Below are positions 26,953 to 40,034 of a DNA stretch of 64,000 nucleotides, piece by piece. The stretch is taken from NCBI RefSeq assembly GCF_001423765.1, contig NZ_LMPG01000013.1, positions 51,396 through 115,395 on the forward strand, read 5' to 3'. Source of the DNA: Sphingomonas sp. Leaf343. Its GTDB lineage: Bacteria > Pseudomonadota > Alphaproteobacteria > Sphingomonadales > Sphingomonadaceae. The notes below the pieces were generated by a model that saw nothing but the letters and a program-made list of their open reading frames with translations, was not told where the DNA came from and searched no databases. Within the stretch, counting starts at the first letter, position 1, and each line of letters begins with the position of its first letter. Position numbers and translations under genes: made by a program.

Positions 26953-29334
26953 ATGTCAGCGATCACCAGACGAGCTTTAATGCAGCAGGGTTCGGCACTT
27001 GCGGCGGTCACGCTGGCGGCCGGGCCGCTTGAGGCGGCTGCACGCGAGTCGCAGATGCTGCCGAAGCTGAAGTCGCTGCCGCTAACGGCGGTTCGGCTGA
27101 AGCCATCGGATTTCGCGACCGCGGTGGCGGTCAACCATCGCTATCTGCTCGGCCTGAGCGCCGACCGGCTACTGCACAATTTTCGCAAATATGCCGGGCT
27201 TGAACCGAAGGCGGAGATATACGGCGGGTGGGAGAGCGACTCGCTCGCGGGCCATACGCTGGGCCATTACCTGACGGCGCTGGTGCTGATGAACGCGCAG
27301 ACCGGCGACGCCGAATGTCGCCGTCGCGCCGATTATATCGTCGCCGAGCTGGCCGAGGCGCAGGCGAAGCGCGGCACCGGCTATGTCGGCGCGCTCGGCC
27401 GCAAGCGAAAGGGCGAGAGCGCCATCGTCGACGGCGAGGAGATCTTCCCGGAGATCATGAAGGGCGAGATCAAGTCGGGCGGATTCGACCTCAATGGATC
27501 ATGGTCGCCGCTCTACACCGTCCACAAGCTGTTCGCGGGCCTGCTCGACGTCCACGAGGCATGGGGCAACGCGCAGGCGCTGACGGTGCTGATCGGTCTC
27601 GCCACCTATTTCGAGCGCGTGTTCGCCGCGCTGGACGATGCGCAGATGCAGGAGGTCCTGGGGTGCGAATATGGCGGCCTGAACGAAAGCTACGCCGAGC
27701 TCTACGCACGCACGAAGGATGCCCGCTGGCTGAAGGTCGCGCAGCGTATCTACGATCGCCGCGTCCTCGACCCGCTCGCCGCGCGGGAGGACAAGCTGGC
27801 CGGCTTTCACGCCAATACGCAGGTGCCGAAACTGGTCGGGCTGGCGCGCCTGTACGACCTGACCGGGGAGGAGCGGTATCGCACCGCCGCGCGCTTCTTC
27901 TGGGAAAGGGTGACGCAGCATCATAGCTACGCGATCGGCGGCAATGCGGATCGCGAATACTTCTTCGGACCGGATCGCATCGCGCAATCGCTGAGCGAGG
28001 CGACGTGCGAGCATTGTAATACGTACAACATGCTGAAGCTGACGCGGCAGTTGTTCGCGTGGGAGCCGGACGGCGCGCTGTTCGATTATTACGAGCGCGC
28101 GCACGTCAACCACACGCTGTCGCAGCTGAACCCGCGCAATGCCGGCTTCTCCTATTTCACGCCGATGCTGTCGGGGGCGGCGCGCGAATATGCGCCGGCG
28201 GGCGAGGAGGGCTTCGTCTGCTGCGGCGGCAGCGGGATGGAGGCCCACGCGAAACACGGCGACTCGGTATTCTGGGAAGGGGACCGGATGCTGATGGTCA
28301 ACCTCTACATCCCGGCGGACGCGAGCTGGGCGGCGCGGAAGGCGACGGTGGCGCTGGAGACGGGCTATCCGCACGACCCGGAGGCGCGGCTGACCTTCGC
28401 GACATTGGGCAAGGCCGGCCGCTTCCGCGTCGCGCTGCGCGTGCCCGGCTGGGCGGCGGGCAAGGAGGCGGTGACGGTCAACGGACAGGCCGTGCCGGTT
28501 TCGCGCATCGCCGGCTATGCGATCGTCGAGCGCCGCTGGAAGGCGGGCGACACCGTGGCGATCACGTTGCCGCTGGAGTTGCGCACCGAGGCTGCACAGG
28601 GCGGCGGGCCGATCGCGATCATGCGCGGTCCGCTGGTGATGGCTGCCGATCTCGGCCCGGCGGACACGAAGTGGACGGGAATGGAACCCGCGCTGGTCGG
28701 CGACGACGTGCTGAGCGCCTTCGCTCCAGTGGCGACGAAAGTCTCGACCTTCACCGCGCGCGGCGTGGGCCGACCGGGCGACCTGACGTTCGTGCCCTTC
28801 TACAGCCAGTTCGACCGGCGTAGCGCGGTGTATTTCCGCCAGTTCACGCAAGGCCAGTGGCAGCAGGAAGAGGTCGCGTTCAAGGCCGAGCTGGCCCGGC
28901 AGAACGATGTCGCCGCCCGCTCCATCGACATCATGTATTTCGGCGAGATGCAGCCGGAACGCGACCACAATCTGGAAAGCGAACAATCGTGGCCGGTCAG
29001 CTATCGCGGACGCAACGGCCGCGACGTCCGGTCGGGCGGCTATATGGCGTTCACGCTGAAGACGCGGCCCGGCCCGCTGGTGTTGCAGGCGACCTATTGG
29101 GGCGAGGACAAGAACCGTGACTTCGACATTCTGGTCGACGATGTGAAGGTCGCCAGCGAGCAACGGACGGGCGACGCGCCCGGCAAGTTCGTCGACGTCG
29201 ATTATCCGCTGCCGCCGGCGCTAACGCGCGGCAAGGCGAGCGTGCGCGTGCGGTTCGTTCCGCATGAGGGGGGGACGGCGGGGCCGGTCTTCGGCGCACG
29301 CCTGCTCTCCGCCGACGCAGGAGCGGTGAAGTGA
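26953..29334 (+). CDS. GH146-like beta-L-arabinofuranosidase (DUF1680 superfamily)
   Basis: A protein of 793 residues with a twin-arginine-type leader (ITRRALMQQGSALAAV). The (alpha/alpha)6 domain spans about 45-440, with catalytic E353 and C355 in CEHC and the Cys423-Cys424 pair in FVCCGGSGMEAH. These correspond to the zinc/thiolate site of GH127/GH146 enzymes. The C-terminal beta domains (about 440-790) resemble those of GH146 members. It removes beta-L-arabinofuranosyl units, as in plant pectic arabinan side chains or hydroxyproline-linked arabinans. It starts a rightward operon with the GH43 gene, with which it overlaps by 4 bp (GTGA). An upstream GGGAGGG is about 11 nt from the ATG. Confidence 0.87.
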   Translation: MSAITRRALMQQGSALAAVTLAAGPLEAAARESQMLPKLKSLPLTAVRLKPSDFATAVAVNHRYLLGLSADRLLHNFRKYAGLEPKAEIYGGWESDSLAGHTLGHYLTALVLMNAQTGDAECRRRADYIVAELAEAQAKRGTGYVGALGRKRKGESAIVDGEEIFPEIMKGEIKSGGFDLNGSWSPLYTVHKLFAGLLDVHEAWGNAQALTVLIGLATYFERVFAALDDAQMQEVLGCEYGGLNESYAELYARTKDARWLKVAQRIYDRRVLDPLAAREDKLAGFHANTQVPKLVGLARLYDLTGEERYRTAARFFWERVTQHHSYAIGGNADREYFFGPDRIAQSLSEATCEHCNTYNMLKLTRQLFAWEPDGALFDYYERAHVNHTLSQLNPRNAGFSYFTPMLSGAAREYAPAGEEGFVCCGGSGMEAHAKHGDSVFWEGDRMLMVNLYIPADASWAARKATVALETGYPHDPEARLTFATLGKAGRFRVALRVPGWAAGKEAVTVNGQAVPVSRIAGYAIVERRWKAGDTVAITLPLELRTEAAQGGGPIAIMRGPLVMAADLGPADTKWTGMEPALVGDDVLSAFAPVATKVSTFTARGVGRPGDLTFVPFYSQFDRRSAVYFRQFTQGQWQQEEVAFKAELARQNDVAARSIDIMYFGEMQPERDHNLESEQSWPVSYRGRNGRDVRSGGYMAFTLKTRPGPLVLQATYWGEDKNRDFDILVDDVKVASEQRTGDAPGKFVDVDYPLPPALTRGKASVRVRFVPHEGGTAGPVFGARLLSADAGAVK

Positions 29335-30881
29335 GGAGCGCAATCACCACAGCCGCCGCGCTGTTGCTGGCCGGGCCGTCGATCGCGCAGACGGGCGCGC
29401 CGGTCGCCGCGCCGGGCAATCCGATCCTGTCGGACGGCCGCTATTACTCGACCGATCCGGCTCCGATCGTGGATGGCGACACGCTGTGGATTCTCGCCGG
29501 CCGCGACGAAGCCAGGGCTGGCGTCAACGACTTCATCATGAACGAATGGCAGTTGCTGTCGACGAACGACCCGGCATCGGGCCGCTGGACGCATTATCCG
29601 GCGATCGCCACGCCGGAGGCGGTGTTCGCCTGGGCGGAACCCGGCCGTGCCTATGCCGGACAGATCGTCAAGGGGCCGGACGGCCGCTTCTACCTCTACG
29701 CACCCGTGCTCCAGCGGAAGAGCCCGGCGGAGGACAGGTTCGCGATCGGTGTCGCGGTCGCGGACCGGATCACCGGCCCGTGGCGCGATGCGCATCCCGC
29801 CGGTCCGATCGTGTCGCAGACCACCCCGGTCGCGAACGACATCCAGAACATCGATCCCACCGTGCTGATCGACGACGATGGCCGCGTGTATCTGTACTGG
29901 GGCACGTTCGGCCAATTGCGCGGCATCGAGCTGGCCCCGGATATGGTTACGACCAGGGGTGCACCCGTAGCCGTTCGATCGCTGACCGGCTTCTTCGAAG
30001 CACCGTGGCTGATGAAGCGGCGCGGCACCTATTACATGCTCTATGCCGGCAACAATGCCGGGCCGGACTCCGCCTGCACGCCGGCCGTCTATCACGCCTG
30101 TATCGCCTATGGCACGGCGGCGTCCCCGCTCGGCCCGTGGACCTATCGCGGTACGGTGCTGAAGCCGGTGAGTTCGACCACCAGCCATCCCGGCGCGGTC
30201 GAGTTCAAGGGTCAGTGGTATCTCGCCTATCACACCGCCGATGCGGCCGGCGGCGGGCATTTCCGCCGCAGCGTCGCGGTCGACCGGATGGAGTGGGACG
30301 ACAGCGTCTCGCCCGCCGCGATCCGGCCGGTCGTGACGACGCGCAGGCCGGCGCCATCCCCCGCCCCGACCCGCAACGTCGCGGCGGCGGCACAGGCGCA
30401 CGCCTCGAACGAGCCGGTACCGGTGCAATACTGGATCAAGGCGCTGAACGACGGCATCGTCAGGGACGCGCCCTTGCCCCCCGACCTTTGGGGAAGCTGG
30501 TCCCCGTCCAATCCACCGCAGCAGTGGATCGAGTATCGCTGGCCGCAGCCGGTGACGCTGGACGGTAGCCGGATCCGTTTCTGGGCGGATCATCCCGCCG
30601 GTGCGGACGAGGGAGTCGCGCCGCCGGCGGCGTGGCATCTGGAATATTGGGACGGCGCGTGGAAGCGGGTGCCGGGTGCCGGCGCCTATGCCACCGCGCC
30701 GGATGTGTGGCAGGCGGTGCGTTTTCCGGCGATCACGACCCGTTGCCTGCGCGCGGTCTTCGACGCGTCGGGACGCGGCACGCGCCGTGCCGGGGTCGCG
30801 GTGTCGGAGTGGGAAGCGCTCGCTCCGCAAACTGCGCCACCGGTGGTGGCGCCGGAGGGTCCGTTGCCAGCGTGCGGTTAG
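29331..30881 (+). CDS. Secreted GH43 family glycosidase (arabinofuranosidase/xylosidase-like) with C-terminal discoidin-like domain
   Basis: A protein of 516 residues with a signal peptide ending SIAQ (residue 20). The five-bladed GH43 propeller shows the three catalytic acids: D42 (STDPAP), D175 (NIDPTVL) and E223 (FFEAPWL). A C-terminal beta-sandwich (about 370-505) resembles the N-terminal domain of the neighbouring GH127: both carry a QW-I/V-YEW/YRWPQPV pattern followed by a YWDGAW/YWTGSAF pattern. The start is GTG 29331 within the GTGA overlap. The activity is probably alpha-L-arabinofuranosidase or arabinanase; GH43 is too diverse to be sure without subfamily assignment. Confidence 0.87.
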   Translation: MRSAITTAAALLLAGPSIAQTGAPVAAPGNPILSDGRYYSTDPAPIVDGDTLWILAGRDEARAGVNDFIMNEWQLLSTNDPASGRWTHYPAIATPEAVFAWAEPGRAYAGQIVKGPDGRFYLYAPVLQRKSPAEDRFAIGVAVADRITGPWRDAHPAGPIVSQTTPVANDIQNIDPTVLIDDDGRVYLYWGTFGQLRGIELAPDMVTTRGAPVAVRSLTGFFEAPWLMKRRGTYYMLYAGNNAGPDSACTPAVYHACIAYGTAASPLGPWTYRGTVLKPVSSTTSHPGAVEFKGQWYLAYHTADAAGGGHFRRSVAVDRMEWDDSVSPAAIRPVVTTRRPAPSPAPTRNVAAAAQAHASNEPVPVQYWIKALNDGIVRDAPLPPDLWGSWSPSNPPQQWIEYRWPQPVTLDGSRIRFWADHPAGADEGVAPPAAWHLEYWDGAWKRVPGAGAYATAPDVWQAVRFPAITTRCLRAVFDASGRGTRRAGVAVSEWEALAPQTAPPVVAPEGPLPACG

Positions 30882-30918
30882 GGGGTCGGGTCTAGAGCGA
30901 CCGCTGGCGACGCAGCTC

Positions 30919-30946
30919 CGTCACCCCGGACCGATCCGGGGTGACG
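30919..30946. terminator. Perfect 12-bp-stem hairpin between convergent genes
   Basis: CGTCACCCCGGA and TCCGGGGTGACG flank the loop CCGA. It lies between the 3' ends of the GH43 gene (+) and the HExxH protein gene (-). No U-tract follows on either side, so it is a 3'-end hairpin rather than a textbook terminator. Confidence 0.55.
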
Positions 30947-30994
30947 AACGAGGTACGGCGGTCCATGCCGACCTGCGTCGATGACTCCCGGGCT

Positions 30995-31897
30995 TCAGCA
31001 CACCTCCGCGGTGGAGGTCGGCGGGGGGCCGGGGGGCACGCGGGCGGGGTGCATGTAATAGGCGTCGCCGGGCACGCGGTGGCTGGTACCGTAGACCTCG
31101 CTCAGGACATTGAACAATGCCACGTCATAGGCGGCGAGATCCGCATCCGACAGGATGCGGCGGCCGTCGACGACTGCCAGCTTGTTCGAATTGAACCAGG
31201 TCTGCGTTCCCTCCGCCCAATATTCGTCGACCGTGACCGCGGCATATTCGCCCGTCCACATCTTGCGCGCCATCGCCGAGGCATAGGCGCGCTCGACCCG
31301 TGCGTAGAGGCCGGGATCGGTCGTTCGCGCCGCCTCCAGAATGGCGTGCGAGAATTCGTGAACGAAGATATTCTCTCCGTAATAGCGCGTCCCCGGAACG
31401 CCGAGCAGGTTCTCCGTCGCCGCGCTGGTCAGCGAACCACCCATGCCGCGCGCGCGCGCGTTCCAGTATTCGGCATCGCTGAGCTTGCCGATCCGCTCAG
31501 GATAGAGCTTGCGTTCGCAGATCGTCAGACGCGGATCGTCGATGGCCGGCTTCTTCCAGTCGCGTTGTTCGGGAAGGTCGACCGTGCCCTCCTTCGTGGC
31601 CATGATGGCGACGCGGAAGCCGGACGCGATCATCGCGCGGCGCAGGTCCGGCCGCTCCGCGAGCATCGCCACCGCGATGTCGCGCGCCAGCAGCAGCGCG
31701 GTGTCCGGCACCGCCGCCGACGAGGCGATCGGAATACCCCCGGCATCGATATAGCGTCGGTAGAAGGGGTCGAGCTTCAATGCCGCCGGCGGCGTTCCGA
31801 TCATTACGCTTGAATAGGATGGCGATGGTGCCTGCTGCGCTTCGGCCGCCGGAGCGCCCAATGCCAGCAGCAAAGCCACGACAGACATCTGCGACAT
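30995..31897 (-). CDS. Secreted protein with HExxH metallopeptidase-like motif
   Basis: A protein of 300 residues with a signal peptide (MSQMSVVALLLALGAPAAEA). HEFSH at 180-184 is an HExxH zinc motif. About 45 residues later EYWAEGTQTWF (225-235) could supply the third zinc ligand Glu, a gluzincin arrangement. I do not recognise the family more precisely and know no substrate. The start is ATG 31897, because GAGGGG lies 6 nt upstream; a preceding TTG is less likely. Its promoter region contains the palindrome 31915-31930, shared with the arabinofuranosidase and TonB-receptor promoters, so it probably belongs to the same glycan regulon. A role on glycoprotein (for example extensin) substrates is speculation. 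Confidence 0.65.
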   Translation of the reverse strand: MSQMSVVALLLALGAPAAEAQQAPSPSYSSVMIGTPPAALKLDPFYRRYIDAGGIPIASSAAVPDTALLLARDIAVAMLAERPDLRRAMIASGFRVAIMATKEGTVDLPEQRDWKKPAIDDPRLTICERKLYPERIGKLSDAEYWNARARGMGGSLTSAATENLLGVPGTRYYGENIFVHEFSHAILEAARTTDPGLYARVERAYASAMARKMWTGEYAAVTVDEYWAEGTQTWFNSNKLAVVDGRRILSDADLAAYDVALFNVLSEVYGTSHRVPGDAYYMHPARVPPGPPPTSTAEVC

Positions 31898-31914
31898 CAA
31901 ATACCCCTCTCAAA

Positions 31915-31930
31915 TTCGTATACCGTATAA
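31915..31930. promoter_or_regulatory. Candidate operator B of the arabinan locus
   Basis: TTCGTATACCGTATAA contains the perfect 11-bp palindrome TATAC-C-GTATA. It lies 18-33 nt upstream of the ATG of the HExxH protein gene. That is close enough to overlap its promoter, consistent with repression. Confidence 0.6.
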
Positions 31931-32095
31931 CTGGTGCCGCGGGGCGGAGTAAAGGGTGAGCAAAAAATCTTCGTCCGTCGCACCGCGGGCAACCAACGGC
32001 GCCACCCCGTGATGAAAGATGATTTCTACCGTATGTGGCAAAATTACAACGACACAGACTATCCTGGTCGTTGACAACTGCTCCTACTAATTCAA

Positions 32096-32108
32096 GTATA
32101 CGATATAC
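32096..32108. promoter_or_regulatory. Candidate operator C of the arabinan locus
   Basis: GTATACGATATAC is a perfect palindrome (GTATA-CGA-TATAC). It lies about 20 nt upstream of the TonB receptor start and is related to the sites at 26893 and 31915. Confidence 0.6.
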
Positions 32109-32129
32109 ATAAACATAGGGGTGGTTCAC

Positions 32130-34925
32130 ATGCTGATGAGATTCCGGTTCGGTCCGTTAATTGCCGCAGCATCACTGGTGTCGACCGGTGCATGGGCGCA
32201 GACAACGACGATCTCCACGGCACAGGAGGGTGATCCGCAACAGGATCGCACCGACATCGTCGATCCCACCGGCACGTCGGACACCCCGCAAAAGACCGAC
32301 ATCGTCGTGGTAGGCATCCGCGGCTCCGTCGCGTCTGCCGCCAACAAGAAGAAAAACTCCAAGCAGATCGTCGACTCGGTCGTATCGGAAGATGCAGGCA
32401 AGTTGCCCGACAACAACGTCGTCGAAGCCTTGTCGCGCGTCACCGGCGTGCAGATCGAGCGTTCGCGCGGCCAGGGACAGAGCGTCGCGATCCGTGGCCT
32501 GTCCGGCGTGCAGACGACGATCAATGGCAACGACACGAGCCTTGGCGATGGCCGATCGCTCGATCTTTCCGACATTCCGGCCGAGTTGCTGAAGTCCGTC
32601 GACGTCTACAAGACGCGCACGGCGGATCAAGTCGAAGGCAGCATCGCGGGCACGGTGAACGTCGAACTGCGCCGTCCGCTGGACCTGCCCAAGGGCTGGA
32701 CCGTCGCGGGCAGCATCAAGGGCAGCTATGACGACATCGCCAAGAACGTCAGTCCGTATGGCAGCCTGTTGGTGGCGAATCGCCGCGACACGGGCATCGG
32801 CGAGATCGGCCTGCTGGTGAACGCGTCATGGACCCGGACGAAATACAAGGAGAACTACATCGAGAGCGAGTCTCCCGATGTGCCGTTCGGCAGCAGCGAC
32901 GAACCCGGTACGCCTCGTGCCGGACTGCCCGCCGGGCTGGAGAACACTGTCATCCCGTACCGCGCCTATTACGGGCTGGAACAGGGCCGCGTCGACCGCC
33001 CCTCGATCAGTGCGTCGCTGCAATGGCGTGCCAACGACAATCTCGATTTCGTTTTCGAAGGCGGGTATCTGGGATCGCGGGCGCAGAACACCTCCGATCG
33101 CCTGTTCCTGCTGACCCGCGAATTCGGATCGCAGTACAGCAATGTCGTCCTGCAGCCGGATGGGCGCACTGCGAAGTCGTTGACCGTCACTGTGCCCCTG
33201 ACCGCCACCGGGCGGAGCGCGCTGCCCGCAGGCATCGATTCGATCTACAACGAATTCAAATCCGATCTCTACACGACCAACTTCGAAATGCACTGGCGGA
33301 CCGAACGTGCACAATTGAACACCAGCGTTCAGTATAACTGGAGCAAGGAAAGCAATGTTCAGGTCGAACATCTGACCCGGCCCTATGGCCTGACCACCGC
33401 CAATGTCGATTTCGCATCTGACATCTATTCAAAGCCGGTACCGTCGATCACCTTTCCCGGCGCGAACCTGGGCGCCGTGAGCAGCTATGGCGTAGAGCGC
33501 TATCAGGATCTGGCGGGGGGATCGAAAAACCGTGAGTTCGCGACGCAAACCGACCTGACGATCGTCGCGAGCGAATCAGGGCTGCTTCGGACGATACAGA
33601 CGGGCGTTCGCTTCAACCGGCGCGATCCGAGCAATTTCTATGGCTATCGCGACGGGTTTCCCAGGAGCGGCGGCCAGTTCACGCCGCTGTCGCAATTTCC
33701 AGGTGGCGATCAGGCGGAGCTGGTCGGCCCCGACCTGCCGGGAGCGCAGAGCTGGTATCGCATACCGGGCAAGGTGGTGTTCGCGAACCGCCCGGCCATC
33801 CGCAACTACATTCAGGCCAATGATCCCGGCAGCGCAGAACGCTTTGCGACAGAAGAGATCCCGTCAGATCGCGGGCAAACCTACACCGGGCGGGAAAACC
33901 GCCTCTCCTATTATGCCCAGATTGGCTATGCCTTCGACCTCCCCATCCCTGTCGATGGCCTGATCGGCGTGCGATACACCAACACATGGGGGGGATCGAA
34001 CAGCTATAATTTCCGCCCCGGCAATGAGGCCACTGGTGGTCAGGATATCGTCCAATACACGCCGGCACGGGGAAATTATGTCGACGTCCTGCCGAACGCG
34101 ACCGCCACGATCCATTTCACGCCGAAGACGCAGCTCCGCCTATCGTACACGACGAACGTCCAGCGTCCGAGCTTCTACGATCTGCGTCCGTTCTACTTCG
34201 CTGATACACGGGCCGTGCCGCCGGTCATCTACGCGGGCAACCCCAAGCTGAAAGCGCAGCGCGATCAGGCGTTCGATGCCAGCGCAGAATATTACTTCGG
34301 ACGTGGCGGACAGTTGTCGTTTGCCGGCTACTACAAGAAGGCGACGGGATTCCTGTTTTACAGTCGCGAGGAGGCAGGCGATCTCGCCGAATATGGACTG
34401 CCCGGGCAAAGTGGTTTCATCGAGCAGCAACGCAATGCCGGTGATGGTACATTTGCCGGCCTGGAAGCGACCGCGCAGACGTTTTTCGACATACTGCCCG
34501 GGTTCTGGCGCAATTTCGGCGTCAGCCTCAACGCCAGCTACATCCTGAAGGCGCGGGTCGAATATCCGTTCCCGGAGACCTTCCCCGGCGCTTACGACTC
34601 CGTCAACACGTCCAAGTGGACCGCCAACGCCGCCTTGTTCTATGACACCCCCACGTTCAGCACGCGCGTGGCGTTCAACTACCGATCGGCCTTCCGCTTC
34701 TTCATCTGGGAGGCCAACCCGGAATACTCCTTCTTCAATGACGATACCTATCGCCTGGACGCCGCCGTCAACTACACGCCGGTCAAGTTCATGACGCTGT
34801 CGGTCGAGGGGACCAACCTGCTGGGCAACGACGTCTACCGGTATTTCGGCAAGCAGAATCTGCTCCCCCTCGGCGTCCGCACCCTCGCGCGGACGGTTCA
34901 GGCCAGCGCCCGGTTCCGCTTCTAG
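32130..34925 (+). CDS. TonB-dependent receptor (Caulobacter/Xanthomonas type) of the arabinan locus
   Basis: A protein of 931 residues with a signal peptide ending AWAQ, a TonB-box-like DIVVVGIRGS segment, and a plug domain with KLPDNNVVEALSRVTGVQI and ADQVEGSIAGTVNV. The long barrel ends in the canonical C-terminal aromatic (SARFRF). It is the probable outer-membrane importer for the arabinose-containing oligosaccharides processed by the adjacent GH127, GH146-like and GH43 enzymes. The start is ATG 32130 with AGGGG 8 nt upstream; a GTG at 32121 would add three residues. The candidate operator at 32096 lies directly upstream, and a perfect hairpin (34939) follows the stop. Confidence 0.93.
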   Translation: MLMRFRFGPLIAAASLVSTGAWAQTTTISTAQEGDPQQDRTDIVDPTGTSDTPQKTDIVVVGIRGSVASAANKKKNSKQIVDSVVSEDAGKLPDNNVVEALSRVTGVQIERSRGQGQSVAIRGLSGVQTTINGNDTSLGDGRSLDLSDIPAELLKSVDVYKTRTADQVEGSIAGTVNVELRRPLDLPKGWTVAGSIKGSYDDIAKNVSPYGSLLVANRRDTGIGEIGLLVNASWTRTKYKENYIESESPDVPFGSSDEPGTPRAGLPAGLENTVIPYRAYYGLEQGRVDRPSISASLQWRANDNLDFVFEGGYLGSRAQNTSDRLFLLTREFGSQYSNVVLQPDGRTAKSLTVTVPLTATGRSALPAGIDSIYNEFKSDLYTTNFEMHWRTERAQLNTSVQYNWSKESNVQVEHLTRPYGLTTANVDFASDIYSKPVPSITFPGANLGAVSSYGVERYQDLAGGSKNREFATQTDLTIVASESGLLRTIQTGVRFNRRDPSNFYGYRDGFPRSGGQFTPLSQFPGGDQAELVGPDLPGAQSWYRIPGKVVFANRPAIRNYIQANDPGSAERFATEEIPSDRGQTYTGRENRLSYYAQIGYAFDLPIPVDGLIGVRYTNTWGGSNSYNFRPGNEATGGQDIVQYTPARGNYVDVLPNATATIHFTPKTQLRLSYTTNVQRPSFYDLRPFYFADTRAVPPVIYAGNPKLKAQRDQAFDASAEYYFGRGGQLSFAGYYKKATGFLFYSREEAGDLAEYGLPGQSGFIEQQRNAGDGTFAGLEATAQTFFDILPGFWRNFGVSLNASYILKARVEYPFPETFPGAYDSVNTSKWTANAALFYDTPTFSTRVAFNYRSAFRFFIWEANPEYSFFNDDTYRLDAAVNYTPVKFMTLSVEGTNLLGNDVYRYFGKQNLLPLGVRTLARTVQASARFRF

Positions 34926-35071: not shown

Positions 35072-35566
35072 TCACCATCCCATGCTGCCCGCTACGCCCT
35101 TGAACGGGCCGGCGAGGTCAGAGGTGATCCAGCCGCCATAGAAACCGCCGGGCTGCGGACGGACCGGCTCGCCATCGACGGAGCACAGGTCGAAGGGTGC
35201 GGCATAGAAGGCGATGTGGTCGCGCAGGATCGCGAATGCGGGCGTGGGATCGGGATAGCTCCACCCGACGTCGCGCAAAATCTGTCCACTGACCTCCAGA
35301 TGCCAGTAGCGCGCCTCGCCCTTCCATTCGCAGAACGAGTGGCGGGTCGACGGGCGCAACAGTCCGGGTGCGATCGCGTCCGGCGGAATGTACCAACCGG
35401 GTGGATGGCTGGTTTCGATCGTCCGCACCGCCGCGCCGGTGTCGGCGACCACGATCCCGGCATGCACGATCCGGATGCGACGATCGCTCCGTTCGGCGAT
35501 CGGGGGCCGGGGATAGTCCCAGACGCTTTCCTGACCGGGCGCGGGGGTATCGGGCCGTGGCTTCAT
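35072..35566 (-). CDS. DUF427 domain protein
   Basis: A protein of 164 residues with a single DUF427 domain: DYPRPPIAERSDRRIRIVHAGIVVADT at the start, then an RHSFCEWKGEARYW segment and a GWSYPDPTPAF segment, all typical of the family. The biochemical function of DUF427 is unknown to me. The start is ATG 35566, with GGGAGAG about 6 nt upstream. It overlaps the DCC gene stop by 4 bp. The longer upstream frame is the shadow of the DCC gene. It is the last gene of a three-gene operon with the FAD-TspO fusion and the DCC oxidoreductase. Confidence 0.85.
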   Translation of the reverse strand: MKPRPDTPAPGQESVWDYPRPPIAERSDRRIRIVHAGIVVADTGAAVRTIETSHPPGWYIPPDAIAPGLLRPSTRHSFCEWKGEARYWHLEVSGQILRDVGWSYPDPTPAFAILRDHIAFYAAPFDLCSVDGEPVRPQPGGFYGGWITSDLAGPFKGVAGSMGW

Positions 35567-35922
35567 GCGTGTCTCTCCCGTCGGGCGAGCCATCGTTGCA
35601 GGGTTGGCCGCATCGTAAGGAAGCGGAGATAGGCGCGTTCCAGCAGGGTCAATACGGGACGATACCGGGCCAGCAGGCCGATCGGCCTCAGCAGCGGGAT
35701 CGCGCGCCACATCGCGGCGAAGGCCGCCGCGCCGGACAGCATCCGGCCGTCTTCCATCGCGTGGAAACGCGCCAGCAATGCGGCACGATCGACCGGACAG
35801 TCGACGGGGCCGGTCGCATCCACGAAGTCGATCCGGCCACGGCGGTCCAGCCGCCGCATCAGCGAGATTTCGCGCCGGCACAGCGGGCAATTCCCGTCAT
35901 GCCAGACCGTGACGCGGCTCAT
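35563..35922 (-). CDS. DCC (DUF393) family thiol-disulfide oxidoreductase
   Basis: A protein of 119 residues. The name-giving motif is visible at the N-terminus as DGNCPLCRREI, with the redox pair Cys12 and Cys15 after a short first strand. The rest of the thioredoxin-like DCC fold follows at the usual length. The start is ATG 35922, which overlaps the stop of the FAD-TspO gene (ATGA); its own end overlaps the DUF427 start. The partner is not known. The tight coupling suggests it serves redox maintenance or the same membrane-associated process as the upstream fusion protein. Confidence 0.85.
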   Translation of the reverse strand: MSRVTVWHDGNCPLCRREISLMRRLDRRGRIDFVDATGPVDCPVDRAALLARFHAMEDGRMLSGAAAFAAMWRAIPLLRPIGLLARYRPVLTLLERAYLRFLTMRPTLQRWLARRERHA

Positions 35923-37652
35923 CGCCCCCCGGCCGGATTGTCGCGCCGGATGCGTTCCGCGAGCAGGGTCGCGAAGCCGAGCCACGCGGCGAACGGCACA
36001 CCGACCGCCGCCGCCGGTCTGTCGACGCGCGCAGCCGCCGCGACATAGGCGCTGCCCGATACGACCATCGCCGCCGATGCCGCCGCGCTCGCACCGAGTT
36101 TCCGCTCCCGGAAGAACAACTGCGTCCAGCCGCCGACCATCGCCGAGTTGAGCAGCCACAATCCGACCGCGGTGTTGCGCGCCGCCCCCGGTGGCCGACG
36201 CAGCAGGCGGTAGCCACCGACGGCGAGGCCGGTTTCCAGCACCGGCCAGACCGCGCCGAACGCCGCATCGGGCGGGGTGAACCCTGGTTTTTCGAGCCGG
36301 CGATACCAGCGGCGGATGGCGGGATGCGACGGATCGGGGGCGTTGCGCCGCCCGACGATCGCGCTTGCGCCCAGCACCGCCGCGACCGCGCCCAGCGCCA
36401 GTAGCGGCGACAGCCCGCCCGGCTTCGGTGCCTCCTCCCGCAATCCGGCCGCCGTGTTTCCAACGGTGCCGTCGTAGCGCGACAGGTCGGGTTCTTTCCC
36501 GCCGCCGCCGAACAGCGTGCCCGTAATCTTGCGAACGGCGGGCCGGCTCGCGATGCCGAGTGCGCCGTGGAGCAGGCGGATGCCCAGCCGGCTGTGCGGG
36601 TTCATCAGCCGGGGCGCGATCTTCGGCACGCCCTGCGCATCCTCGACCATCGGGCGCATCGCCTCCTCATAGGCTGCGAAGGCGGTCGCGCTATCGTCCG
36701 TGCGCGCCAGTTCGGCCGCGAGCACATAGGCACCCGTGACCGCGAGCGTCGTGCCGAGGCCGGCGATCGGCGTCGCGCACCACGCCGCGTCGCCGGTCAG
36801 CACCACCCTGCCCTTCGACCAGCGCGGCATCCGCACCTGTCGCAGCACGTCGAAATAGAAGTCGTCGGTATCGTCCATCCCGTCCAGCACGCGCGCAGAC
36901 TGCCAGCCGGCGTCGGCGAACCGCTCGCGCAGCCAAGCCTTCTGCCGATCCACGTCCCAGTCCTGCTCGCCGCCGGGCGGCTGCTGCACGGACAGCATGG
37001 CGCGCGTCGTGCCGTGACGATCGGGCCGCAACGATACGCTGCGTCCGTCCGGGGCATTGTACCAGCGCCACAGCCGGTCGTCGTCCGCGGTTCGCGGGAT
37101 CGTGAAGTAAGCGATCGTCAGGTCCATCCAGCGTGGCGCGTTCTCTTCCGGGAAGACCAGCGCGCGGGTGGCGGAGCCGACGCCCTCGGCGACGATGACC
37201 GCATCATAGCGTCCGGTCGTCCCGCTCGCGAACGTGACATTCGCGGCATCGCCATCGTCGACGATCGTCGCGACGCTGTCCCCGAACCGATAGGTCACGC
37301 GCTGCGCGGCGGGTTCGTAGAGAAGGCGGGCGAGATCGCCGCGCAGGATCTCCATCTCGGCCGTCGGTCCGTCGGTCGTCTGGTCGGCGGTCAGGAACTG
37401 GGCGGCGACCCGCCCGGCCTCATCGACCCACGCCGTTCCTTCCTCGCCGGTACCCTGATCCAGCGCCGCCTGTTCCAGACCCATGCGCCGCAGCACCTCG
37501 CGCCCCGCTCCGCGCACGTCGATATTCTGGCCGCCGTCACGAAAGGCGGGCGCACGCTCCACGACGGTCACGGCGAAGCCGGCGCGGCCGAGCCACCACG
37601 CGGCGGTATTGCCGGCGACGCTGGCCCCGGTAATCAGGATATGACGGGACAT
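35919..37652 (-). CDS. FAD-dependent monooxygenase fused to a TspO/MBR membrane domain
   Basis: A protein of 577 residues in one uninterrupted frame. Residues 1-390 are a PheA/TfdB-type flavin hydroxylase: an N-terminal ITGASVAGNTAAWWLGRAG dinucleotide motif, then GRYDAVIVAEGVGS, and GRVVLTGDAAWCATPIAGLGT for FAD binding. Residues about 412-577 are a TspO/MBR domain: a first helix, WYRRLEKPGFTPP (449-461), FGAVWPVLE, and LNSAMVGGWTQLFF with its downstream charged residues. TspO proteins bind tetrapyrroles and act in stress and light responses. GAGGAG precedes the ATG. I do not recall this fusion as a standard architecture. Substrate and direction of any electron or ligand transfer are unknown. 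Confidence 0.85.
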   Translation of the reverse strand: MSRHILITGASVAGNTAAWWLGRAGFAVTVVERAPAFRDGGQNIDVRGAGREVLRRMGLEQAALDQGTGEEGTAWVDEAGRVAAQFLTADQTTDGPTAEMEILRGDLARLLYEPAAQRVTYRFGDSVATIVDDGDAANVTFASGTTGRYDAVIVAEGVGSATRALVFPEENAPRWMDLTIAYFTIPRTADDDRLWRWYNAPDGRSVSLRPDRHGTTRAMLSVQQPPGGEQDWDVDRQKAWLRERFADAGWQSARVLDGMDDTDDFYFDVLRQVRMPRWSKGRVVLTGDAAWCATPIAGLGTTLAVTGAYVLAAELARTDDSATAFAAYEEAMRPMVEDAQGVPKIAPRLMNPHSRLGIRLLHGALGIASRPAVRKITGTLFGGGGKEPDLSRYDGTVGNTAAGLREEAPKPGGLSPLLALGAVAAVLGASAIVGRRNAPDPSHPAIRRWYRRLEKPGFTPPDAAFGAVWPVLETGLAVGGYRLLRRPPGAARNTAVGLWLLNSAMVGGWTQLFFRERKLGASAAASAAMVVSGSAYVAAAARVDRPAAAVGVPFAAWLGFATLLAERIRRDNPAGGR

Positions 37653-37784: not shown

Positions 37785-38963
37785 ATGATGACGCGACTAG
37801 AACGTGCGAACAACGTGGCCGACCTGCGTCTGATGGCGCGCAGCACGCTGCCGCGGCCGATCTTCGACTATATCGACGGCGGGGCGGACGACGAAGTGTC
37901 GCTGCGCCGGAATACCGCCGCGTTCGCCGACTATGAGCTGGTCCCCGACGTCCTCAACGACGTGTCGGACATCCGGACGGAAACCCGGATCTTCGGGCAA
38001 TCGTCGCGCTGGCCGCTGATGCTGTCGCCGACCGGCCTGACGCGGATGTTCCATGGCGAGGCCGAACTCGCCGTGGCCCGCGCGGCGGCGCGACACGGGC
38101 TTCTCTACAGCCTGTCGACCATGGGCACGACGCGGCTGGAGGATCTCGCGCAGGCGTTCGCCGGACCGAAGGTCTTCCAGATCTACATCTTCAAGGATCG
38201 CGGCCTGACCGCCGAATTCGTGGCGCGGTGCCGGGAAGCCGGCTTTCACGGCCTCGCCCTGACGGTCGACACGCCGGTCGCGGGCAACCGGGAGCGCGAC
38301 CGGGTCAGCGGCCTCTCGCTGCCGCCGAAGCTGACGCTCCGGTCGCTGCTCAGCTTCGCGCTTCATCCTTCGTGGTCCCTGCCCGCGCTAACGGGATCGA
38401 AGTTCGATCTCGCCAATGTCAGCCACAAGGTCGATGCGCTGGCATCCGGGCCGATGAGCCTGTTCGACTATATCGGCGGCCAGTTCGACCGTTCGGTCGG
38501 CTGGCGCGATGTCGAATGGCTCGCCCGCGAATGGAACGGGCCACTCGCGATCAAGGGCGTAATGACCCCGGAGGACGCCCGCCGATCGATCGGGTCGGGT
38601 GCGACCGGGGTCATGATCTCCAACCATGGCGGGCGACAGCTGGACGGCGCCCCCGCCCCCGTCGATCAGATCGAGGCGGTGCGGAACGCGGTCGGCGATG
38701 GCCCGGATGTGATCTGCGACGGCGGCATCCGGCGCGGGTCGGACGTGGTTAAGGCGCTGGCGCTGGGGGCGACCGCCTGCTCGATCGGAAGGCCGTATCT
38801 CTATGGGCTGGCGGCGGGTGGCGAAGCGGGCGTCGATCGTCTCCTGACGCTGCTCCGCGAGGAGTTCGAGCGCACGCTGACGCTGGCGGGGATCAACGAT
38901 GTCGCAGCCGTGTCGCGCCGCCACGTCCGCCATCGGCCAGGACGGTCGGATCGTGCAGGGTAA
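37785..38963 (+). CDS. FMN-dependent alpha-hydroxy-acid oxidase/dehydrogenase (LldD-like)
   Basis: A protein of 392 residues in the glycolate oxidase/L-lactate dehydrogenase family. It has an N-terminal FDYIDGGADDE segment, YSLSTMGTT, and the diagnostic SNHGGRQLD motif with the catalytic His near residue 283, followed by DGGIRRGSDVVKALALGA for FMN phosphate binding. It oxidises a 2-hydroxy acid to a 2-keto acid. L-lactate is the common substrate, but mandelate- and glycolate-type members look alike. Two adjacent ATG codons (37785, 37788) are possible starts. It is divergent from the FAD-TspO operon with a 132-bp gap. Confidence 0.88.
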   Translation: MMTRLERANNVADLRLMARSTLPRPIFDYIDGGADDEVSLRRNTAAFADYELVPDVLNDVSDIRTETRIFGQSSRWPLMLSPTGLTRMFHGEAELAVARAAARHGLLYSLSTMGTTRLEDLAQAFAGPKVFQIYIFKDRGLTAEFVARCREAGFHGLALTVDTPVAGNRERDRVSGLSLPPKLTLRSLLSFALHPSWSLPALTGSKFDLANVSHKVDALASGPMSLFDYIGGQFDRSVGWRDVEWLAREWNGPLAIKGVMTPEDARRSIGSGATGVMISNHGGRQLDGAPAPVDQIEAVRNAVGDGPDVICDGGIRRGSDVVKALALGATACSIGRPYLYGLAAGGEAGVDRLLTLLREEFERTLTLAGINDVAAVSRRHVRHRPGRSDRAG

Positions 38964-39030: not shown

Positions 39031-39666
39031 TCAGGCGAGGCGGACCGTCGCCCGCCGACGGCGGACCACGCCGCCGACAGCGCCGAACCCGGCGATCAGC
39101 ATCGCCCAGGACGCTGGTTCCGGAACCGCCGTCGCCGACAAGACGACGTTGTCGATCGCGAACTCCGGAAACTCCGGTCCGCCCGTGATCGTCAGAGACG
39201 ACAGGTTCGTGAAGTCCGCGAACGTGAAGTTCGTGAAACTCTCCGCCTCCTGCGCACCGACGACGATCGTGGTGGTCACGACGCCACCGGTTCCCGATCC
39301 GGTCAACGTCAGGGTCAGGGGCCGGTCGTTGCCCGTCAGCGTCTGCGCGGCGTCGAGGGAGGTCAACGAGAACAGGCCGCCATTCTCCAGATCGAACGTC
39401 ACGCTGCTCTCGTTGAACGCGTAGAGGGCGATCGTTCCGTTGGACGCGCACCGGGGATTGCACTGGCCGAGATTGTCCGCCGGATCGTCGATCAGGGTGA
39501 AACCGAACGGACTGATCGGTTCGTAGCGGACCCGGAAGCCATCTTCGACGAAGCTGTAGGGGAAGTAATAATAGCCCCCGGCCTCAGCCTCGAAGTCGAT
39601 GGTTTCCGCCTGCGCCGATGTCGTCAGAAGGGCGGTCGCAACGGCCAGCGAAATCTTTTCGATCAT
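39031..39666 (-). CDS. PEPxxWA-CTERM sorted exported protein
   Basis: A protein of 211 residues. It has a signal peptide (about 1-20, ending SAQAE), a beta-rich, Thr/Gly-rich body of unknown function, and a C-terminal sorting signal: VPEPASWAM, a hydrophobic helix, and the basic tail RRRR. This PEPxxWA variant is processed by exosortase systems that normally accompany exopolysaccharide production in proteobacteria. The glycosyltransferase operon a few kilobases away is a plausible but unproven partner. The start is ATG 39666, 6 nt after GAGGA; ATG 39669 would be too close. Confidence 0.85.
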   Translation of the reverse strand: MIEKISLAVATALLTTSAQAETIDFEAEAGGYYYFPYSFVEDGFRVRYEPISPFGFTLIDDPADNLGQCNPRCASNGTIALYAFNESSVTFDLENGGLFSLTSLDAAQTLTGNDRPLTLTLTGSGTGGVVTTTIVVGAQEAESFTNFTFADFTNLSSLTITGGPEFPEFAIDNVVLSATAVPEPASWAMLIAGFGAVGGVVRRRRATVRLA

Positions 39667-39669
39667 CAT

Positions 39670-40034
39670 TGTTCCTCTCGTCCGGAGAACGGGTGACATC
39701 ACGCCAACAACCATCCTCTCCGCCGAGTCTTCATCGTGCCACGCGGCGGTCGCCCGCAAATCCGCAGCCGTGAAATCTGGGACAAAGCTCGTTCTAATTC
39801 AGTGGCTTGTCAATCCGTTCGGCGGCCGCGGCGAAGGGAGCGCGGGCCGGCACGCGGGCGCGATGTCGCCAGACCGGAGCGGGGCCGTCGGCAGCGGCCG
39901 CGACGGGCAGCGGTTTGGAGGGCGATCGACGTTCGTGGCGAAGGCGACGCATCAGTGCGGATGCAGGAGCCGCCGAGCGACGGCTCCCGCACAGATCCTC
40001 AGGCTTTGGCGGTATCCGTCATTCCGAAGATGGG
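39670..40034. other. Non-coding interval of about 365 bp
   Basis: Upstream of the PEP-CTERM gene and downstream of the unrecognised gene at 40035. It presumably carries the PEP-CTERM promoter. The open frames here are arginine-rich and look non-coding. I see no RNA gene or repeat. Confidence 0.4.

Follow-up and report, generated by a model that had tools for sequence, protein, structure and literature searches.

The window analysed here, a stretch of 64,000 nucleotides from Sphingomonas sp. Leaf343, holds a flavin-dependent oxygenase and a TspO/MBR membrane protein in one reading frame, and so raises the question of whether the two are genuinely fused and, if so, what a TspO protein gains from an attached enzyme or the enzyme from TspO. 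A sequence-only reading had described the frame as an uninterrupted union of a complete flavin hydroxylase and a complete TspO domain, a description that is borne out: the frame at 35919-37652 on the minus strand is single and stop-free, starts with ATG, encodes 577 amino acids and contains two Pfam domains that both exceed their cut-offs. The class A FAD monooxygenase part (residues 1-394; 36471-37652, minus strand) matches FAD_binding_3 (PF01494) at residues 5-337 (E 1.7e-22; 80.6 bits against a cut-off of 22) over positions 4-343 of the 349 in the profile, which is nearly the full model; the TspO part (residues 412-577; 35922-36419, minus strand) matches TspO_MBR (PF03073) at residues 425-568 (E 6.5e-27; 94.5 bits against a cut-off of 24); and a linker of 17 amino acids (residues 395-411; 36420-36470, minus strand) separates them. 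The motifs that we take to characterize class A FAD monooxygenases, an N-terminal dinucleotide-binding glycine motif and a GD...P..G motif, are found in the FAD half as GASVAG at residues 9-14 and GDAAWCATPIAGLG. The NCBIfam models that best fit the FAD half are PRK07588, PRK05868 and the tetracycline destructase family, all below their own cut-offs (216.3 bits against 550 for the tetracycline destructase model NF033476), and the TspO equivalog NF047825 likewise scores 67.4 bits against a cut-off of 180.

An AlphaFold2 model of the fusion built on 55 aligned sequences (mean pLDDT 89.2, pTM 0.73) predicts two well-formed halves joined by a disordered linker, with low confidence at residues 399-407 and a mean pLDDT of 41 over residues 401-410. 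The TspO half is predicted to form five long helices (residues 416-437, 462-484, 490-515, 519-541 and 545-571) and thus to possess the five transmembrane helices that define the PF03073 family. Over the whole FAD part, the nearest solved sequences and folds are tetracycline destructases of the Tet(50) type (5tue, 5tul, 5tum), at about 31-32% identity; the comparison with Tet(50) gives a VIA-align Z of 44.4, an rmsd of 2.4 over 376 residues, 32% identity and a Foldseek E of 1.1e-29, although matches to the FAD domain take up the VIA-align list, which thus bears on the FAD fold and says nothing about the TspO fold. The fusion differs from these enzymes in falling below the family cut-off of NF033476 and in carrying TspO.

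The fusion is not peculiar to one assembly. Among 295 genomes of the same genus, 24 contain one match that extends over both halves with no internal stop (20 of these carriers were fetched as loci and 4 read from the match table), and a scan of genome contigs yielded 71 loci, among them 16 fusions of full length and one with an internal deletion (L068, Sphingomonas gellani); the two sets share some species and therefore overlap. Among 298 genomes drawn from the family, the full-length matches listed are the window's own and one in another genus (G094). The 16 fusions of the contig scan come from records titled Sphingomonas, except for one titled Microvirga sp. SRT01 (L035), which has the same coordinates as a genome counted in the window's genus (G368), so that its title is probably a misnomer. 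The genes in this record and in one titled Arthrobacter sp. TPD3018 (L076) group with those of Sphingomonas, and both titles look wrong. In Sphingomonas gellani, the deletion (L068, 5001-6155; L135, 1743-2870) runs from about residue 290 to residue 505 of the fusion and leaves one open frame; a genome evidently of the same strain (G340) also has a FAD-only gene that is intact and adjoins a MarR gene (L133).

The linkers of the full-length fusions have twelve lengths (9, 10, 11, 12, 16, 17, 18, 20, 21, 22, 24 and 26 amino acids), mostly bordered by DLSRY at the start and GLSPL at the end. The junction position of about 36410-36430 given earlier falls at the TspO end of the linker (36420-36470). 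Because the fusion class is defined by one shared frame, its members are in frame by definition; what does not depend on this definition is that both halves lie in different frames or segments in none of 142 loci (E 1e-8). A frameshift or an assembly error at the junction, named at the outset as what could undo the covalent pairing, was rejected as the source of the fusion and can be considered virtually excluded, since separately sequenced strains in many assemblies have the same junction. Ratios of dN/dS across 10 pairs, some of them with a sequence in common, range from 0.092 to 0.210 for the FAD half and from 0.025 to 0.293 for the TspO half, with the TspO half below the FAD half in 8 of the 10, and indicate that purifying selection acts on both halves in every pair. 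Across 12 loci, no start codon (ATG, GTG or TTG) is common to all within the linker and the first 12 TspO codons, and two loci (L038, L041) have none in this interval; in five others (L033, L037, L040, L043, L121), the fifth or sixth TspO codon is TTG or GTG by manual count, so that an internal start giving a separate TspO is possible there.

A common architecture was also considered and rejected. A search with PF03073 of 398 genomes of the phylum found matches in 103, and among the matches listed in open frames of at least 400 amino acids there is no fusion besides that of the window: five such frames (L143-L147) were considered as further TspO fusions and rejected, because Pfam sees TspO alone in each, with no second domain, and they appear to be long shadow frames. 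None of 72,556 plasmid records, 433 of which have some match, covers at least 80% of the fusion in one place. No description of a FAD monooxygenase-TspO architecture appears in the titles and the beginnings of abstracts listed by searches of the open-licence literature. We conclude that the fusion is real, conserved and, within this literature, not found described, and that it is built from two known families.

The fusion gene heads an operon. Its stop codon is overlapped by 4 bases by a gene for a DCC1-like thiol-disulfide oxidoreductase (PF04134; 35563-35922, minus strand), identified by gene call and synteny, and the third gene encodes a DUF427 protein (PF04248; 35072-35566, minus strand) that is syntenic with fused and free-standing tspO alike; Pfam assigns no role to the DUF427 family. 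The succession tspO-DCC-DUF427 (here 35072-35922), with or without genes for glutaredoxin or photolyase-like proteins, is a recurrent Sphingomonas arrangement: many free-standing tspO genes are followed by genes for DCC1-like and DUF427 proteins, some have a glutaredoxin gene upstream, and one (L075) lies next to a photolyase-like gene. With flanks of differing lengths, the 43 TspO-only loci have matches to glutaredoxin in 14, DCC in 24, DUF427 in 20 and photolyase in 1, and the 19 fusion loci (two of which are the window's own place) in 0, 11, 12 and 5, respectively. Pseudomonas TspO has GrxC and PhrB as predicted partners according to the available part of one account (PMC4237140), and the phrB-tspO locus of Mycobacterium kansasii is light-induced according to that of another (PMC9861118). 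As these partners of other TspO proteins match the genes that neighbour relatives of the fusion, a setting of light or oxidative stress is reasonable. Other features of the window are a divergent gene for an FMN-dependent dehydrogenase (37785-38963, plus strand), matched among fusion loci only at the window's own place; a gene for a predicted protein with a PEPxxWA-CTERM sorting signal (39031-39759, minus strand); and a region (29331-34925) with genes for a glycosyl hydrolase of family 43 and a TonB-dependent receptor of the Xanthomonas/Caulobacter type, which may serve in the use of plant polysaccharides. Elsewhere in the genome, contig 14 contains a second, free-standing TspO gene (L001, 278180-278605; 135.8 bits in Pfam), the product of which is 36% identical to the fused TspO.

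The two halves have different relatives. The TspO half has free-standing relatives, mostly at 61-84% identity, in other Sphingomonas and further members of Sphingomonadaceae. Those of the FAD half, mostly 394-429 amino acids long and 54-77% identical to residues 1-394, occur in Methylobacterium, Rhizobium, Agrobacterium, Aureimonas, Xanthomonas and Massilia, with further relatives on plasmids of Methylobacterium, Roseomonas, Shinella, Aureimonas, Agrobacterium, Novosphingobium and Rhizobium. In one set of 37 FAD-only loci, a MarR-type gene adjoins the FAD-only gene in 12 and tspO is near it in none; a MarR-type gene is also found at L070, L131, L133, L134, L136 and L142. As each half has free-standing relatives elsewhere, those of the FAD half on plasmids as well, a mobile oxygenase gene probably landed upstream of the resident tspO of a tspO-DCC-DUF427 operon and fused with it.

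Phylogeny suggests that this happened once. After removal of identical rows (90 to 76 for FAD; 84 to 67 for TspO) and then of 15 distant or long FAD rows (76 to 61), the FAD tree of 61 rows has a single clade (bootstrap 96, SH-aLRT 96) made up of 24 fusion rows and 8 FAD-only rows, the FAD-only group having been chosen after a first FAD tree was seen, so that the result is not an independent test. The fusion label changes five times on this tree, most simply by one gain and four losses, and the earlier FAD tree is alike; the FAD trees are relied upon because the TspO tree is weakly resolved. A single origin of the fusion is most likely, as the tree fits one gain.

The TspO half appears to have been lost in four lineages and the FAD half in at least one. 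Seven of the eight FAD-only rows within the clade (L123-L127, L129, L132) still have a DCC, DUF427 or photolyase gene or gene fragment alongside, and at the eighth (L130) none of these three was found. In one (L126), the FAD half is followed by the linker, one hydrophobic helix, a stop and the overlapping DCC gene. In two of the four lineages (L123-L126 and L127), the oxygenase has a single hydrophobic segment at its C terminus (Kyte-Doolittle mean over 19 residues, 2.0-2.6), unlike the free-standing FAD monooxygenases listed from other genera, which have none there; the other two have no clear anchor, one (L129/L132) ending in tails of 7-8 amino acids and one (L130) in a long frame. A distant relative of the oxygenase, 48% identical (L142, 2001-3374), has a C-terminal hydrophobic segment of its own (Kyte-Doolittle 2.0-2.6) and an adjoining MarR gene. 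Loss of the other half is suggested by sequence resembling the C terminus of the FAD domain before TspO in three loci (L137, L139, L140), which is significant alone only in L137; the remnants in L139 and L140 rest on extension of the TspO match and, for L139, also on manual reading of the DNA, which finds, upstream and in a frame other than that of TspO, a short stretch resembling the start of the FAD half, as would follow if a fusion had undergone deletion of that half. In the TspO tree, which is weakly resolved in its other parts, these three loci cluster with two fusions, L121 and L122 (SH-aLRT 99).

The fusion may constrain how TspO sits in the membrane. Reviews, as far as their available parts extend, assign Rhodobacter TspO to the outer membrane, its N-terminus facing outward, and Pseudomonas TspO to the inner membrane, and their accounts of its orientation differ (PMC8243069, PMC4237140). 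In the model of the fusion, the first strand of the FAD half starts at residue 4, which would leave no room for an export signal; a domain that has no such signal and that requires FAD, and probably NAD(P)H, should lie in the cytoplasm, and the TspO half would then be in the inner membrane with the N-terminus on the cytoplasmic side. Loop 1, however, is strongly positive and is the most positive loop of the fused TspO, which by the positive-inside rule speaks for the reverse orientation. We nonetheless infer a cytoplasmic FAD domain and an inner-membrane TspO half with its N-terminus inside.

Whether the TspO pocket serves the oxygenase can be approached through its residues. We take 8e7x to be the TspO of Rhodobacter sphaeroides, with a ligand-binding role for W38, W39 and W44, 2mgy to be mouse TspO and 4ryi that of Bacillus cereus. 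The fusion shares with these TspO/MBR chains the five helices, the WY..L.KP loop and the W..FA...L signature, and differs from them in having an enzyme attached, in the conserved GRRNAPDPSHP of loop 1 and in replacement of the three tryptophans of 8e7x, which align with G457, F458 and A463; thus, its range of ligands may differ. The motif given as LxKPsW/F in the available part of one account (PMC4237140) reads LEKPGF in the fusion. A comparison of 24 fused with 35 free-standing TspO sequences at least 55% identical to that of the window found no position separating the two groups at a threshold of 70%, at which a subtler difference would be missed. Phototrophy was considered as a common factor and rejected: the photosynthetic reaction-centre family PF00124 has matches in 42 of the 295 genus genomes, comprising 2 of the 24 carriers (G343, G535) and 40 of the 271 others, so that carriers are not enriched, and it has none in the window's own genome. 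With reaction centres in so few carriers, bacteriochlorophyll metabolism is not what they have in common. The link of TspO to light and oxidative stress named in the sequence-only reading fits the setting among DCC and DUF427 genes and, in some relatives, among genes for glutaredoxin or photolyase-like proteins.

The explanation that we favour, at about even chances of being right, is that one gene fusion made a membrane-tethered class A FAD oxygenase and that the TspO half retains its own ancestral ligand function. In a single event, a soluble class A FAD monooxygenase would have been joined to the N-terminus of a resident TspO; with the FAD domain in the cytoplasm and TspO in the inner membrane, N-terminus inside, the gain would be to keep the oxygenase at the membrane, as part of the TspO/DCC/DUF427 stress operon, and it might there hydroxylate a lipophilic or aromatic compound that it encounters. 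TspO would keep its ancestral ligand function, and the halves would be coupled by proximity and a fixed 1:1 dose rather than by an obligatory channel. The hydrophobic ends of L123-L127 and L142 suggest that an anchor may have been favoured more than once, and membrane tethering may therefore be the selected feature, although the two TspO-loss lineages that have no clear anchor argue that it is not essential. By analogy, a precedent for C-terminal anchoring is the human kynurenine 3-monooxygenase, a flavin monooxygenase held at the membrane by a C-terminal part needed for its activity according to the available part of PMC3969302; its anchor is not TspO, and the bacterial structures of this enzyme match the FAD part at 19-20% identity. 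The single helix kept in two TspO-loss lineages, and the separate one in the more distant L142, might suggest that TspO is a mere anchor with its ligand function gone. This is improbable to a degree that we regard as considerable: the modelled TspO half keeps all five helices, the residues invariant in its subfamily are retained, no position is specific to the fused form at the threshold of 70%, and in 8 of 10 pairs its dN/dS lies below that of the FAD half, all of which argues that it is not decayed to a plain anchor. The apparent reversion of the fusion to single domains several times would suit neutral operon compaction, by which the stop codon between neighbouring operon genes was lost and the product tolerated with no functional gain, a reading that we consider distinctly unlikely given that the fusion has been kept in 24 genomes of the genus through many changes of linker length and that an adjacent but split pair occurs in none of 142 loci.

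A closer partnership, in which TspO binds a membrane-borne porphyrin, quinone, carotenoid or lipid product and hands or reports it to the oxygenase, resembles the earlier suggestion of a TspO pocket that supplies the enzyme with, or senses, a substrate such as a porphyrin or a lipid intermediate. Fused genes often encode steps of one process, and both halves of this one are under strong constraint as judged by dN/dS. Moreover, porphyrin levels rise when TspO is lost in Bacillus cereus (PMC13185565) and Rhodobacter TspO is described as controlling porphyrin efflux (PMC7074977), as stated in the available parts of these papers. Nevertheless, substrate coupling of this kind is unlikely. Fused and free-standing TspO are alike in their residues and the tryptophans of 8e7x are replaced; free-standing oxygenases adjoin a MarR gene (12 of 37 FAD-only loci) rather than tspO (none of the 37); a FAD monooxygenase lies beside tspO in one of 36 TspO-only loci by tblastn (L078, a distant enzyme at 26% identity), with a relative of that locus (L076) having the same gene by clustering; there is no link to phototrophy; and each half appears to have been lost without the other. 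The feeding or sensing role is thus not supported, and the idea of tetrapyrrole feeding is weakened by these comparisons. Direct hand-over of substrate from TspO to the oxygenase is possible but unsupported. A bolder form, doubtful though a little less so, is that TspO draws a lipophilic ligand from the membrane for oxidation by the fused flavin domain, the cytoplasmic enzyme confining TspO to the inner membrane and keeping its N-terminus on the inner side; if true, this would be a TspO with a hard-wired catalytic partner, contrary to the outer-membrane model of Rhodobacter.

Both the working partner of TspO and its orientation in bacterial membranes are disputed in the available parts of the reviews (PMC8243069, PMC4237140). 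Because the fusion names one partner and ties the N-terminus of TspO to a domain that should be cytoplasmic, both disputes become testable in cultivable Sphingomonas, among which the gain of the fusion and its apparent repeated loss in close relatives supply ready-made natural controls. A natural fusion would in this way provide a handle on the working partner of TspO and on its orientation in the membrane.
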